Assembly (NCBI GenBank): GCA_937904325.1
Contig: CALGTK010000394.1
Coordinates: 1 to 36,649, forward strand
Direction of reading: 5' to 3'
DNA from: an uncultured Planctomyces sp.
GTDB lineage: Bacteria > Planctomycetota > Planctomycetia > Planctomycetales > Planctomycetaceae
DNA: 36,649 nucleotides
Shown here: in pieces, positions 4,917 to 11,016 of the stretch
How positions within the stretch are numbered: position 1 is the first letter of the stretch
Layout: each line of letters opens with the position of its first letter
Made by a program: the position numbers and the translations under genes
Notes under the pieces: model-generated
Told to the model about the DNA's origin: nothing
The model's database searches: none
The model's input: the letters and a program-made list of their open reading frames with translations, nothing else

Positions 4917-7900
4917 TCAGGACTCTTTGACCCAGTTCGGGACAGGTGTCAGTTGGAAGGCCTCGTCGATCTCTTCGGCCAGTCCTGTAACGACGTCGCC
5001 TGCGTCTGCTGATCCTTCGCCGCTTCCGCCAGCAACCTGGTCTGTGTCCACGCCGCCGTCGACATTGTCAGAGTCGGCTCCGCCAAATATTGTGTCTGAG
5101 CCGGCCTCGCCTCGAATCGAATCGTCTCCTGATCCGCCGTAGGCGATGTCGTCGCCGAGTTGACCGAAGAGTGTGTCATCGCCACCTCCGCCTGACAGGC
5201 CGTCAGCACCATCTCCACCAAGGAGCTGGTCATTGCCGGCTCCACCTTGCAGAAAGTCGTTGCCGCCGCCTCCGGTCAACGTATCGTTTCCGTCCTGGCC
5301 ACGGAGCAGGTCCATGAAGTTGGAGCCTGTTAATTGGTCGTTTCCAGCGCCTCCATCAAGAGTTGGTGGGTAGGTTGGAACAAAGCCGCTGATATCGATG
5401 GTATTGTCGCCGTCACCGCCAATCAGGTGAGCAGTTTCAATACGGATGATGGTGTCAGTTCCTCGGCCAGTCAGCGAACTGGCTGTGAGTGTGAAATCGA
5501 CGTTTCCGGATTCCATCACGAGGTCCGTGCCCGCTCCGCCATCGAGTGTGTCGTCGCCCAGACCTCCGATCAGCGTGTCGAATGATGATCCCTGTCCACG
5601 CAGTCGATCATTCCCGTCGCCTCCGATCAGAATGTCGCGACCGGCGGCGCCGGAAAGATTGTCATTGCCTGCTCGGCCGTCGATGGTGTCGTTGCCGGCG
5701 TCGCCGAGCAGTGCATCGTTGATGTCACTACCGATCAATGTGTCGTTACCGCTGTGTCCTCGGAGAGTGACGCTGGTCTGTCCTGCGGAAAAGAAAGCTG
5801 ATGTATCGATTCGGTTGTCGGATGCTCCGCCGAACAGGATGGCTCGTTCGACTGAAACGAGAGTGTCGTTGCCGTTACCAGTCATCGAAGTGTTTGTCAG
5901 GACGAAGTCGGCATCGGCTTCGTCGAAGATGACATCGTCCCCCGCGCCTCCGTTGATCAGGTCATCGCCTTCGCCACCGTATAACGTGTCACCGGATGAG
6001 CCCTGTCCAAAGAGTCGGTCGCTGCCACTGCCACCTCGCAGGCTGTCTCGTCCGCTGCCACCAGCGAGATTGTCGTCGCCGGTTCCTCCACTCAGTGTGT
6101 CGCGTCCGGCACCGCCGTTCAACGTGTCTGCATCTTCGCCGCCGTCAACGAGGTCGTCACCGGCTCCGGACAGCAGGATGTCATTGCCGGACCCGCCTGC
6201 CATCACGTCATCAGTCACTGTGCCGGTCAGTGTGTCATCGCCGCCGTTGCCGCGGAGAGTGACGCTGTTCGAGAAGTCGGAGGCGTCGATTTGATTATTC
6301 GACGAGTCGCCATGGAGTTCCGCATTTTCAAGTGAGACGAGTGTGTCGGTGCCGTTTCCGTCGTAAGTTCCGTCAAGAAGCGTTTGCTGGCTGGCAACGG
6401 CGTCATCGAGAAAGAGGTCCGTGCCTCCGTTTCCGTTGAGCGAATCGTCGCCGGCACCACCTGTTAGCGTGTCGTCGTCCATGCCTCCAGCGATCGTATC
6501 GTTACCCTGACCTCCGTTTACGGCAACGCCCAATGAGCCCCCGTCGAGGTTTTGAATGGTGATGTCATCGTTGCCGCCGAGTGAATTGATTGTCAGCGAG
6601 GCCGTCGGGTCGGCGAATACGATCGGAAGGCTGATGCCGTTGCTGGTGACTTGTGAGAGTCCGTTAGATACGCTTCCGTCGTCACCAACAACGATCTGTT
6701 CGTCGGCGTCCGTCAAACTGAATTCGCGGTTTGTAGCAATAAGACGATCGATGATTCCCTCGACACCGGTATACAGGTTCGAGATGCCGTCGATGGAAAC
6801 GGAACCTGTGCCCGCAACAGTTAACGAGGACGTATGAATAACCGAAGATACAGTCCCGGCGTGCACGTCGATTCGGTCTCCATCAACAGACGTCTCACCG
6901 CCGGCGTTGAATGTGAATCCGTCTGCTGGCAGTGGGTTTCCATCTGTGCCGTCAAAAATCAGGATGTCGTCGTCACCTGAGCCGTTGATGACGAGGTTAG
7001 TGACGGATGCTGATTCGGCCTGGGCTGTCAATATCCCGTTGACGTAGACCTCAAGCCGCGTGCCATTTCGCTTGACTCGGAACACGTCCGCGGAACCGTC
7101 GTCCGCTTCGTTGCCGTTCGGATGATCATCGGTCTCGACGGTCCATATGCTGGCGGTGGCGACGATTTCGATTGGAACCAGCTGGTAGTCGATCGCACTG
7201 GGAAACTCGCCGACGCCAGTCGTGATGCTATGCGTTCCTGCCAGTCCATTGACCGGCGTGATTGTTGTCGTGCCGGTACTCGGATTGACGACGTAGTTGA
7301 GATTGGCGTTGGAAAGTTCCGGGATGAAAAGGTTGTTTGCCGCGAGCAGGGCCTCGTCAAGAAATGTGACAGGATTGCCTTCAAGATCGATCTGAGTCAG
7401 TTGCAGCTCTGTTGGCATGTCGACGAGTGTTCGGACTGACGGGATGTCAGTCAGGAACGGCTGATTGTTCACCGTGTCTGCCTGAATGGTTACCTCAAAG
7501 GTCTGCTGAGCCTGATTGCCATCGGGATCCGAAACGGTCACAGTGATCGTGGCTGACCCAGTGACACCTTCCGGAGCACTCAGCATAAGCACGCCGTTTT
7601 CGATGTCGGTGAAAACGTTGAACATCGTGACAACAACGGACGTATCGGGAGCCGAGTTTGTTACCGGTGTTTCGCTGATTGCTTCGCGGACGGATTCTCC
7701 AGTGGTGAGCAGTCCGAAGACGGTGTGTTGAGAGTCAAGATGCCGTTGTACGCCTTCGGTGATGAAAAATTGTGAATCGTTCGTGTCGTCCTCGGATTTG
7801 GCCATGGACAGCACGCCAGTCGTGTTGTGCTGCAGGTCCGGATGGAACTGATCGTCGAAGTCACCGAGTGACGATCCACCTGTTCCGACCGGGTCGCCAT

Positions 7901-8366
7901 TTGGATCGCCACCCTGCAGAACAAAGTTGTTGATGACACGGTGAAATATCGAGCCGTCATAGAAGTTGCTTTCTGCTAACTCGATAATCTGCTCGGTCGC
8001 GCGCGGCGCCTTGTCTTCGTACAGCTCGAACGTCATCACGCCGAAATCCTGGACGTCGATTTCAATGCTGCGGTTGCCTTGAGGGACGGATGTCGTGACA
8101 TCAGAGTTGCTGCTGCTCGCGGAAAATGACAACGTCTGATCGTCGGCGTCGGAGCCGTTCAATGGGATGTGCAGCGGCGAACCTGACAGCAGTGTCACAT
8201 CTGTTATCGGAGCGAGGACCGGTGTCGCGGTCAGGAGCGAGCGGACTTCGAGCGGCTCGGTAAATGCAGGACGAGAGGTATGGTTCGCTCGACGGCGGTA
8301 CTTGAGTGACGACAGTGAGAGCACGCGGATCGACGATGGTCTCTTCAGCCAGGCGAAAGTGTTCAT
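4917..8366 (-). CDS. Secreted cyclophilin-type peptidyl-prolyl isomerase fused to RTX-like Ca-binding repeats
   Basis: A 1149-residue multidomain surface or secreted protein. Residues 1-47 carry a basic leader ending in PLEVRSLLTA, the planctomycete extracellular LEPR-type motif. Residues 108-255 are a cyclophilin domain: FHRV (141-144), QGGDPNGDPVGTGG (151-164), SQFFIT (198-203), LDSQHTVFG (210-218). Cadherin/Ig-like segments lie around 265-300. From about 595 to 1115 are glycine-aspartate nonapeptides (GGxGxDxLx) of hemolysin type, expected to bind calcium. Three longer segments (about 650-705, 815-875 and 955-1005) are homologous and divide the repeat region. The frame extends to 8504, but those 46 residues lack the leader character and the ATG at 8366 starts a typical one, so I chose that. 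It follows the actin gene on the same strand after 193 bases. Domain calls are firm; the role is inferred to be extracellular folding or adhesion. Confidence 0.88.
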   Translation of the reverse strand: MNTFAWLKRPSSIRVLSLSSLKYRRRANHTSRPAFTEPLEVRSLLTATPVLAPITDVTLLSGSPLHIPLNGSDADDQTLSFSASSSNSDVTTSVPQGNRSIEIDVQDFGVMTFELYEDKAPRATEQIIELAESNFYDGSIFHRVINNFVLQGGDPNGDPVGTGGSSLGDFDDQFHPDLQHNTTGVLSMAKSEDDTNDSQFFITEGVQRHLDSQHTVFGLLTTGESVREAISETPVTNSAPDTSVVVTMFNVFTDIENGVLMLSAPEGVTGSATITVTVSDPDGNQAQQTFEVTIQADTVNNQPFLTDIPSVRTLVDMPTELQLTQIDLEGNPVTFLDEALLAANNLFIPELSNANLNYVVNPSTGTTTITPVNGLAGTHSITTGVGEFPSAIDYQLVPIEIVATASIWTVETDDHPNGNEADDGSADVFRVKRNGTRLEVYVNGILTAQAESASVTNLVINGSGDDDILIFDGTDGNPLPADGFTFNAGGETSVDGDRIDVHAGTVSSVIHTSSLTVAGTGSVSIDGISNLYTGVEGIIDRLIATNREFSLTDADEQIVVGDDGSVSNGLSQVTSNGISLPIVFADPTASLTINSLGGNDDITIQNLDGGSLGVAVNGGQGNDTIAGGMDDDTLTGGAGDDSLNGNGGTDLFLDDAVASQQTLLDGTYDGNGTDTLVSLENAELHGDSSNNQIDASDFSNSVTLRGNGGDDTLTGTVTDDVMAGGSGNDILLSGAGDDLVDGGEDADTLNGGAGRDTLSGGTGDDNLAGGSGRDSLRGGSGSDRLFGQGSSGDTLYGGEGDDLINGGAGDDVIFDEADADFVLTNTSMTGNGNDTLVSVERAILFGGASDNRIDTSAFFSAGQTSVTLRGHSGNDTLIGSDINDALLGDAGNDTIDGRAGNDNLSGAAGRDILIGGDGNDRLRGQGSSFDTLIGGLGDDTLDGGAGTDLVMESGNVDFTLTASSLTGRGTDTIIRIETAHLIGGDGDNTIDISGFVPTYPPTLDGGAGNDQLTGSNFMDLLRGQDGNDTLTGGGGNDFLQGGAGNDQLLGGDGADGLSGGGGDDTLFGQLGDDIAYGGSGDDSIRGEAGSDTIFGGADSDNVDGGVDTDQVAGGSGEGSADAGDVVTGLAEEIDEAFQLTPVPNWVKES

Positions 8367-8559
8367 GATGACGTTGTCCGATGGGGACTGTTCGCGACAA
8401 GGTGGGAAGATGACGCAGAGAGATGTGAGGTGTGAAAATGAGGTCGGCGTCTGGTGTCGCAGTTTGCTGTGATCGGGCCGGCGACAGGCAGAGTCTCCTG
8501 TCACCCACTGTTCCGATCGCCGCCCGTCTTCAGTTGTTTTTCGAGTTCCGTTAGCTGAA

Positions 8560-9669
8560 TCAAGCGGCGCGATTCAGGGGAACGCACGCCGTTGGGATTT
8601 TGCTTGGTTTTACGCTGCCTGTCGGGGCGACGATTTGCTGCCAGTATTCCGCTGGCATGTTTGTTGCCAGTTTCAGGGATCCAGTCGCACCGGCAAAAAC
8701 CGCGTCATGCACCTGGGTAACTTTGGCTATGCCGTATGGTTTCAGAGCTTTTACGATCTGAAGATCCAGCCCCTTGAGTTGACCGCCGCCACCGCCTGCA
8801 AGAATGTTGTTGAACAGTGACTTCTGGACGTTACGATCAAACTTTGCAAGCAGTTCCAGGAGTGCCTCTGCGATACCAGGTACGATTGTTCGACATGCGG
8901 CGTTCAACTGCTGGGTTACGTCAAGCTGAGTCGGTTCGCCCGCAATCGACACAGTTGCAATCGCCCTTTCTTTGCCATCGCAAACGAAACCGAATTCTTC
9001 TTTGATTTCTCGAGACTGATTCAGCGTGAATTCGGCGCGCGGCTGGCTTTGCATGACCAGTCGCTGAAACTCGTCGTCGATCAGGTTGCCGCCGATGGGC
9101 AGTGTGATTTGATCCTCATCTTTCGGGTGAGGACCGTACATCGGGCAGATGTCGATTGTGCCGGCACCAATGTCGATGACCAGCGCATTGGACAACTGGC
9201 TGATGCCATACGCGATGCTAAACGGGTCGGCAACAACCATTACGGCGTCAAGTGTTCGTTTCGCGGAATTGATGATCAACTGCTTGTTGAGAACTGTGGC
9301 ACGGGACGGGACGCCAATGACGCTGTAGGTCGGGCGTCCGGCTGGCACTTCCAGTTTAGACACTACGTGCTGGACGAGAAGTAGAGCGGCTTCTTTGTGT
9401 TTGGCGATGTCTTCCGGTCCGATACCGACGTCGGCTCCGTCTACGTACTTCAATGCGCCGCGTCGGAACGGGCGAATGAGGTTCAGATTCGATTGGTTCT
9501 GCAACGCTTCTTCACCGAAAATCAAGTCACGCCCGAGCAAGGATCGAGCGACGCGATTTTTGGGCCAGCCAACCACGCTGGGGACTACGAGCCGTTTTCT
9601 GTCGGATGAAGTGATTGCCGTTTTGAACGTTCCAAGGTCCAAACCAACGTAAGTGACGGGTTGTTTCAC
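8560..9669 (-). CDS. MamK-like bacterial actin
   Basis: A 369-residue actin-fold ATPase. Phosphate-1 motif GLDLGTFKT is at 9-17, phosphate-2 motif VIDIGAGTIDI at 164-174, and the adenosine motif ILAGGGGGQLKGL at 289-301. The pattern is closer to MamK, which organises magnetosome chains, than to MreB: PSVVGWPK near 30, VIGVPSRA near 117, DQITLPIGGN near 186, EIKEEFGFV near 221, and the closing PAEYWQQI (339-346) all have MamK counterparts. A 23-residue Pro-rich tail follows. The acidic residue after phosphate-linked strand 3 is Asp148 (ADPF) where MamK and MreB have Glu. The start is GTG with a strong AGGAGAG site 5-7 bases upstream. A bitopic membrane protein gene lies 120 bases upstream on the same strand. 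No other magnetosome genes are visible, so magnetosome positioning is not implied. Confidence 0.88.
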   Translation of the reverse strand: MKQPVTYVGLDLGTFKTAITSSDRKRLVVPSVVGWPKNRVARSLLGRDLIFGEEALQNQSNLNLIRPFRRGALKYVDGADVGIGPEDIAKHKEAALLLVQHVVSKLEVPAGRPTYSVIGVPSRATVLNKQLIINSAKRTLDAVMVVADPFSIAYGISQLSNALVIDIGAGTIDICPMYGPHPKDEDQITLPIGGNLIDDEFQRLVMQSQPRAEFTLNQSREIKEEFGFVCDGKERAIATVSIAGEPTQLDVTQQLNAACRTIVPGIAEALLELLAKFDRNVQKSLFNNILAGGGGGQLKGLDLQIVKALKPYGIAKVTQVHDAVFAGATGSLKLATNMPAEYWQQIVAPTGSVKPSKIPTACVPLNRAA

Positions 9670-9789
9670 GGTACTCTCCTGTCAGTTACGCTGGCAACTG
9701 TGGTGCGCAATGTTGAGACTCTTGTATGAGTGCTTCAGGTGGGCTGCGGATTCGGCGGTTGGAAGGGGCTGATTCTCTTCAGGTGACGA

Positions 9790-10923
9790 TCATGCGGCAG
9801 ATTCGTTTTGTTGGTCGAGTTCCTGCATGAGGTTCAGGTTTTGTTCAAAGATCGACTTGAGGATGCCGGCCTCGTTTTCCAGGTTAACGCTGCCTTCTGA
9901 AGATGGGGCGTCGTCTCCGTGGTCGCTGCCGATGACTCGGAAGTTAAAGTCTGCCGTATCGGCGACGTTCCGCCGGTTTTCGGATTCGGTCAGTTCTTTT
10001 GCCAATGCTTCAGATGGTGACGTCTGCGTTCCGAACGGGACAACGTCTGCCGAGTCGTTCTCCGTGATTGTTTCAGCGGTTGCCTTGCTGATCGCTCCGA
10101 GTCGGAATGTGATTCCGAGGTTAACCCCAAAGAACTTCATGGTGGCGACACGAATGAGCAGAAAGAGGCCGACTGCAAGTAGAACACCGAGGAAAGTCGA
10201 AATGAGCTGTGCCATGGCGAGAGTCCTCACACTTGCCTGGGGGGCATTAAGTATGTTTGTGACTGCCGTTGGTGACTCATCTGAATGCGTCAGTAGTTGC
10301 GGTGCGGCATCGTAAGCGTCGACTTGTGAATTCAGGTCGTTCTCAGGCGAAGGTGATCCCTTGTCGCTGGCTGAATTGTTGGCTTGACGGCTTGCGACGA
10401 GTTCTCCGGCGTTCGGAACGACGGGGATCGTCATCGTACCGCCTTCCCGCGATGAGTCCTGGATGGTCTCATGTGGCTGAGTTGGGATGGGGCCAACATT
10501 CTGATCTTCAATGCCGTCCGGGTGGTCAATCAAACGCGGAATGATCAGGGGCCGTGACAGCTCGACATTTTGATCAGCGTCACTTTTTATCGTTGTTTTG
10601 CCGGTACGGATATCGGGATTGGTTGCAGCCACTGGCTCAATGGCCGTCCACGTTCCGAAAGACTTGAACTGCAGGTTCAGCAAACCAGCTTCATCTCCAG
10701 CGTTAGTCAATTCGCCGACGTCAGACGCATCCTGTTGGAACTTTTCGGCACTGCTCAACGGCTTGCGGGGCCGCGCATCATCGGCGTCGGCAACGGATAC
10801 CGTTCCGACAACGAGTACCGTCACACAGCATCTGAATGCGACGGCTAACACTAGTCCGGTCGATGTCGACGCGGAGCCGTTCATCAAACTGAACTCGATA
10901 TGCTTGCGAATAGGTGCCAACAT
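9790..10923 (-). CDS. Bitopic membrane protein, probable partner of the MamK-like actin
   Basis: A 377-residue protein of no family I recognise. It has a signal-peptide-like segment (residues 23-45, ending SVADA), a disordered Ser/Asp/Pro-rich region of about 190 residues, one strong transmembrane helix (236-259, LAMAQLISTFLGVLLAVGLFLLI) and a 118-residue acidic tail. The topology should put the N-terminal part outside and the tail in the cytoplasm. The last 25 residues include ILKSIFEQNLNLMQEL, a likely amphipathic helix. The frame extends to 11016, but the ATG at 10923 has an AGGA site 7 bases upstream and gives a sensible leader; 10884 is the alternative. The actin gene follows after 120 bases. 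A filament-anchoring role is inferred from topology and position only. Confidence 0.72.
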   Translation of the reverse strand: MLAPIRKHIEFSLMNGSASTSTGLVLAVAFRCCVTVLVVGTVSVADADDARPRKPLSSAEKFQQDASDVGELTNAGDEAGLLNLQFKSFGTWTAIEPVAATNPDIRTGKTTIKSDADQNVELSRPLIIPRLIDHPDGIEDQNVGPIPTQPHETIQDSSREGGTMTIPVVPNAGELVASRQANNSASDKGSPSPENDLNSQVDAYDAAPQLLTHSDESPTAVTNILNAPQASVRTLAMAQLISTFLGVLLAVGLFLLIRVATMKFFGVNLGITFRLGAISKATAETITENDSADVVPFGTQTSPSEALAKELTESENRRNVADTADFNFRVIGSDHGDDAPSSEGSVNLENEAGILKSIFEQNLNLMQELDQQNESAA

Positions 10924-11016
10924 GAACCATTCCTGTCGCATGTGATTAGTTGGGAGCTTCCTCTGACGTATGAAGCAGAACCAACTATCCGTGCAGTCGA
11001 TAGCGCTTATCGGCAT

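Follow-up and report, generated by a model that had tools for sequence, protein, structure and literature searches.

Two neighbouring genes on the minus strand of the window, by which we mean the whole 36,649-nucleotide stretch of planctomycete DNA analysed here, probably encode a cognate actin-adaptor pair, presumably expressed from a single operon, in which MamK-family filaments would be anchored to the envelope by the C-terminal tail of the partner protein. The best reading, on sequence comparison and structure prediction, is that the pair works like MamK with its adaptor, in bacteria that have no magnetosomes. A membrane-anchored filament system had already been proposed in the initial annotation of this DNA, and it stands as the best reading since the two genes are neighbours in nearly all relatives that carry the actin and the actin is set apart from MreB; the jobs suggested for it there (organising internal membranes, organelles or the division plane), by contrast, found no direct support. 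Our analysis strengthens that annotation and adds to it a second actin-partner pair, a conserved C-terminal motif and a spread through the phylum.

Organisation of the actin-partner locus

The actin gene carries a Shine-Dalgarno-like AGGAG 7 nt upstream of its GTG start (Table 1), and no terminator-like site was found on the minus strand of the gap that separates it from the partner gene, an arrangement consistent with both genes lying on one transcript. For the partner, whose longest ORF spans 9790-11016 on the minus strand, we judged the ATG at 10941 (MRQEWFMLA) to be the probable start because it aligns with the starts of relatives; the position given in the initial annotation, 10923, is an in-frame ATG six codons further inside. 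According to the same annotation, the product of this upstream gene bears a signal, crosses the membrane once and has an acidic tail in the cytoplasm, and the protein does carry two hydrophobic segments (residues 55-73 and 270-288) and an acidic cytoplasmic region (20 D/E versus 9 K/R), with the predicted order signal segment, low-complexity outer region, span and acidic cytoplasmic tail. Searches of the partner against Pfam, NCBIfam and the PDB gave no match. Longer partners of relatives (L031-L033 and others, e.g. L027:1630-3048) share an extracytoplasmic helical hairpin-like stretch, approximately LLxxARxLExxGxxxxAxxLAxxA...WPxxExSP, which the window partner lacks and which we regard as lost. 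Beyond the actin gene, a 1195-aa protein (4917-8504) carries a cyclophilin domain and, after it, numerous RTX calcium-binding repeats; members of the genus and one further relative (L043) keep it in this position, immediately downstream of the actin.

Table 1. Coordinates of features at the actin-partner locus of the window.
Feature	Position	Strand	Basis
MamK-family actin-like protein, 369 aa, GTG start	8560..9669	-	ORF, NCBIfam, PDB, predicted fold, tree
Catalytic-loop stretch VADP of the actin; residue 148 = codon 9226-9228	9223..9234	-	Alignment with homologues
Intergenic gap, 120 nt, partner stop to actin start	9670..9789	-	Sequence
AGGAG, Shine-Dalgarno-like, of the actin gene	9676..9680	-	Sequence
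Bitopic partner (putative adaptor), probable start 10941; longest ORF to 11016	9790..10941	-	ORF and alignment with relatives
Conserved C-terminal helix motif EAGILKSIFEQNLNLMQEL, proposed actin-binding tail	9817..9873	-	Profiles, alignments, AF2
Transmembrane span, residues 270-288 of the longest ORF	10153..10209	-	Hydropathy 2.40
Low-complexity extracytoplasmic region, probably disordered	10210..10797	-	Sequence; no family recognised
N-terminal hydrophobic signal segment, residues 55-73 of the longest ORF	10798..10854	-	Hydropathy 2.42

The actin is nearest to MamK and separate from MreB

Profile and fold place the window actin nearest to MamK rather than MreB, and the tree, which sets it firmly apart from MreB, may do so too. 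It scored 355 bits on the NCBIfam MamK profile compared with 183 on BeeR and 48 on MreB, and against PDB sequences the order was the same (MamK 246 bits, E 4e-72; BeeR 127; MreB 27). The predicted structure is closest to the MamK filament 5ljv (Z 42.5, rmsd 1.7 over 325 residues), followed by BeeR (Z 38.5) and then MreB (Z 33.7). In a tree of 100 rows MreB was separated from all other rows with support 100, and a Planctomycetia clan that includes the window actin was split with the same support from MamK, BeeR, Parabeggiatoa and other planctomycete classes; the tree was built by a quick method with SH-aLRT support only, and it holds a single MamK sequence, a long outgroup and an uncertain root. 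The initial annotation had likewise put the actin closer to MamK than to MreB and noted the closing PAEYWQQI, which is indeed present. A match to the general MreB_Mbl model of Pfam is what might point to a second MreB-like elongation system, yet the two MreB profiles gave only 48 and 37 bits against cut-offs of 293 and 366, a true MreB (438 bits) is encoded elsewhere in the genome, and the tree holds the two apart with full support, so we regard this possibility as exceedingly improbable. Profiles, tree and fold together rule out membership of an MreB-like family.

Nor is the protein a plain MamK, since its 355 bits fall below the NCBI curated MamK cut-off of 400 bits and its catalytic Glu is replaced by Asp. 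A paralogue scores 363 bits, also under the cut-off, which is passed by some relatives (L083, 401 bits; L185, 432; L191, 422). The position that corresponds to MamK E143 is Glu in 107 of 113 aligned homologues but Asp (residue 148) only in the window actin and its two nearest relatives, whereas the equivalent of D161 is conserved; the roles of both MamK residues have been described (PMC5059902). ATP turnover by the window actin may therefore differ. BeeR proteins are defined by more than 530 bits together with an N-terminal extension of 30-50 aa (PMC11929497); the window actin stays far below this score, its domain begins at residue 7, and no extension of the BeeR type was found in it.

The paralogue lies on another contig (C214) of the 7.97-Mb genome, is 48% identical to the window actin, retains the catalytic Glu and also follows a gene for a single-span protein.

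A C-terminal tail is conserved in otherwise divergent partners

While most of the partner diverges almost past recognition, such that BLAST joins the partners into small groups only, its residues 382-400 form a conserved tail (window partner, EAGILKSIFEQNLNLMQELDQQNESAA; paralogue partner, ESAIMQQFIENNVSLHNEIGEGRAAA). The motif, approximately [AG][IM][LM]xx[IV]FExN[LV]xLxxxL, corresponds to one short helix whose Asn is invariant (28/28 aligned tails), and in the Planctomycetia clan a median of 8 residues separates it from the partner C-terminus. We trained a tail profile on Planctomycetia only and ran it on 46 loci of other clades, where 19 upstream genes but none of 364 other genes reached 6 bits (p ~1e-18), and shuffled upstream proteins gave 0.02 matches per replicate. 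A six-frame search of the 8-Mb genome for the tail (E<=10) returned two places, each directly before a MamK-like actin; since both tails or near relatives were in the search alignment, the weight of this result rests on the lack of a third place. Across all non-redundant loci with upstream room the strict profile threshold was passed at 70 of 111, and many of the loci below it show variants by eye, for example IFKLNVELR. It is chiefly the occurrence of various heads on one tail, described below, that leads us to see the tail as the part that would bind actin.

Both window proteins end in Ala-Ala (8563-8568 for the actin, 9793-9798 for the partner), as do 45 of 52 actins of the Planctomycetia clan (relatives L027-L099) and 19 of 48 partners, compared with 34 of 260 other ORFs. 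To judge from their sequence, such ends are possibly degron-like.

An AF2 prediction points, through its summary statistics, to docking of the tail on the actin. The input (59 rows) was the natural read-through of tail, linker and actin, in which the partner stop and the actin start are in frame and stops are read as Gly, and the resulting chain had a pTM of 0.84, with pLDDT 92-94 in the tail helix and 34-53 in the linker. By our own arithmetic on summary figures (~345 of 455 residues as confident actin, d0 7.6), pTM would have a ceiling of ~0.78 if the helix were unplaced; the observed value exceeds it, which argues that the helix is placed on the actin, in a run where tethering and paired rows may favour docking. 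The pLDDT of the tail was rejected as evidence of docking, as the tail alone, without actin, was predicted as an equally confident helix (pLDDT 97).

The pair is conserved within a patchily distributed family

The actin-partner pair is real and conserved: actin and partner are adjacent in almost all actin-bearing relatives, and at loci of the Planctomycetia clan with upstream room a tail-bearing gene precedes the actin in 48 of 50 cases, with a span before the tail in 47 (these loci are related by descent, so the counts are not independent events). Among the 59 relatives the actin was found in 14, and wherever flanking sequence was available the preceding gene encoded a single-span protein. 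Most genomes of the same family lack the actin, which therefore cannot be their general replacement for FtsZ. That many members of the lineage lack FtsZ, as the initial annotation had it, agrees with our results: FtsZ was not detected in the window genome or in 20 relatives by a search that recovered it from 13 of 14 control genomes.

About 140 genomes, out of the 392 sampled from Planctomycetota, gave strong MamK-like matches. Named carriers include Gemmataceae (Limnoglobus roseus) and MAGs of Pirellulales and Brocadiaceae, joined beyond the phylum by Parabeggiatoa and a Riflebacterium. This breadth, along with a partner that resembles no described Mam protein and the fully supported branch that separates the clan from MamK, makes it very unlikely that the window actin is the relic of a lost magnetosome cluster, a MamK kept without its organelle, even though MamK is its best profile match and some Planctomycetota are reported to contain magnetosome gene clusters, as cited in PMC12713370 and PMC12748827. 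The remark in the initial annotation that no other magnetosome gene is visible is true of the neighbouring genes tested beside the actin, none of which is a magnetosome gene. In the whole genome nothing scored above the cut-off for MamP, and MamI gave no match, a negative of little weight since no control genome carries MamI.

The tail motif also precedes MamK-like genes in other planctomycete classes, Parabeggiatoa and Riflebacteria, joined to different heads. In Planctomycetia the partners are bitopic; in the other planctomycete classes they are soluble, GGDEF-like or possibly coiled-coil, with a GGDEF match in 3 of 4 tail-bearing partners tested (2 above the Pfam cut-off); and in Parabeggiatoa and Riflebacteria they are small, with a span at the N-terminus and the tail as their extreme C-terminus. 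By eye, the GGDEF signature fused to the C-terminal tail looks degenerate in three of these proteins (L182, L185, L191). Divergent actins of other Planctomycetota (L199-L208) cluster with BeeR (support 100) and score higher on BeeR than on MamK, and several of their upstream genes end in another conserved motif, approximately [IV]P[IF]DDIxxIIDxL. The Riflebacteria pair (L097) adjoins genes that appear FHA-like, STAS-like and CheA-like by eye; we considered this locus as a magnetosome cluster and rejected it, as the surrounding ORFs include no mam genes recognisable by eye.

Because soluble partners elsewhere bear the same tail, membrane anchoring is not the constant role of the tail, and the partner could be a regulator of polymerisation, a nucleator or capper, rather than an adaptor, with the span serving just to hold it at the cell periphery. 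Other actins are regulated by short C-terminal helices (ParR on ParM, WH2 on actin), and by analogy the soluble tail-bearing proteins, several of which have a GGDEF-like domain, would fit such a function. However, in the window's own clan the span precedes the tail in nearly all tail-bearing partners, and anchoring and regulation are not exclusive, as MamJ does both (PMC5059902, PMC10653835); we thus consider it unlikely that the partner is a regulator instead of an adaptor.

Secretin genes lie near a subset of loci

A gene combining PF13629 with Secretin (PF00263) lies near 12 of 43 Planctomycetia loci with flanks, where about 0.3% would be expected per locus (proximity being within a few kilobases of flank, and the expectation derived from genome counts), although the secretin-bearing loci are related and not independent. 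Either the secretin or one of two companions, an uncharacterised family and a TPR protein, is present at 17 of the 43. In Gemmataceae the uncharacterised companion directly follows the actin; it resembles CpaD by eye, and Pfam gave no match to it even at E 10. Limnoglobus has adaptor, actin and this companion in one direction and the secretin and a TPR-like protein in the opposite one, and in two relatives a secretin lies 2-5 kb from the second actin-partner pair of the window's genus. Such arrangements would fit a fixed envelope-machine module, in which the bitopic adaptor ties the actin to an outer-membrane, pilus-type secretin complex that the actin positions or powers. Against this, no secretin flanks the pair in the window itself, over 8 kb in one direction and 26 kb in the other, and its conserved neighbours are an M50 peptidase and the RTX/cyclophilin protein; most planctomycetes with such secretins lack the actin, and no TadA-type ATPase was found near the actin in the genomes checked. 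We therefore hold the fixed module to be doubtful, if less so than the partner as a pure regulator, and take a nearby secretin, the one contextual clue to a cellular job, as a hint of an envelope role. Perhaps the secretin complex would correspond to the crateriform structures of planctomycetes, which in P. limnophila join the outer and cytoplasmic membranes (PMC5394234), but a link of the pair to these structures is speculation.

Discussion

In the actin-adaptor pair as we envisage it, the actin would be a MamK-family ATPase that forms polar filaments in the cytoplasm, and the partner would be exported N-terminus first and retained in the inner membrane by its one span. Its amphipathic C-terminal helix is predicted to dock on the actin and would hold the filament, such that filaments would be tied to the envelope and their dynamics could be tuned there. 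The fast-changing outer part of the adaptor would set what the filament connects to, in several relatives maybe a pilus-type secretin complex.

Planctomycetes divide without FtsZ and their cytoplasmic membranes are heavily invaginated, and we know of no filament system shown to organise these membranes. MamK-type actins are common in Planctomycetota without magnetosomes, and the conserved C-terminal helix of the neighbouring protein may be a short, testable handle on such actins; should the tail bind, genome sequence would be enough to identify the adaptor of each of them. As a tentative proposal, possible though not the outcome we would expect, this actin-binding tail (~hLxxhFExNhxLR) is previously undescribed and general, defining swappable MamK-type adaptors across Planctomycetota and beyond, and in Planctomycetia it connects filaments across the inner membrane with envelope structures built on secretins. 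MamK itself would be recast as a specialised offshoot within a broader set of adaptor-anchored actins, within the bounds of a tree that has one MamK and an uncertain root, and deep-branching magnetotactic bacteria may encode as yet unrecognised MamK adaptors immediately before mamK. Overlooked MamK adaptors elsewhere are also suspected by the authors of PMC10653835. The pair points to an unstudied but common means by which bacteria would attach actin filaments to their envelope. Our search of the open-licence literature found no description of the actin-adaptor pair or of the tail, and MamK-type actins of planctobacteria are mentioned in an evolutionary essay (PMC7203096).

Among known systems, BeeR (8r2n), from non-magnetotactic Verrucomicrobiota, is alike in being a MamK-related actin outside magnetotaxis and establishes that MamK relatives without magnetosomes exist (PMC11929497), but the window actin scores much lower on it than on MamK, and the BeeR-like actins of Planctomycetota are another group, with another upstream tail. 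McaA of AMB-1, a bitopic protein that interacts with MamK (PMC13170167), shares with the window partner the order of signal peptide, periplasmic part, one span and cytoplasmic part; it differs by a periplasmic VWA domain and a functional cytoplasmic region of 136 residues, neither of which was found in the window partner. MamJ of magnetospirilla and Mg-1g50 of MV-1 are hypervariable MamK adaptors encoded immediately upstream of mamK (PMC10653835). They resemble the partner in this position and in being hypervariable and acidic, and MamJ is likewise membrane-anchored by one helix, whereas its interaction domain is N-terminal and its membrane helix C-terminal, the reverse of the window partner (span 270-288, tail 382-400), which also lacks a central acidic repeat; going by the description of MamJ, these traits set the two apart.

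RodZ is the bitopic anchor of the bacterial actin MreB, and ParR binds ParM through its short C-terminal helix. The window pair recalls both, with a putative bitopic anchor as in RodZ and, as proposed for the partner, a short C-terminal actin-binding helix as in ParR, although no HTH or DNA-binding domain was found in the partner and no sequence relation was detected. Compared with MamK (5ljv, 5ljw, 5jyg), the window actin differs in the lack of magnetosome genes, the Asp in place of E143, its separate Planctomycetia clan and a profile score under the MamK cut-off, but it is alike in profile, fold, nucleotide motifs including D161 and the closing YW motif, and its putative adaptor gene lies directly upstream, as mamJ does.
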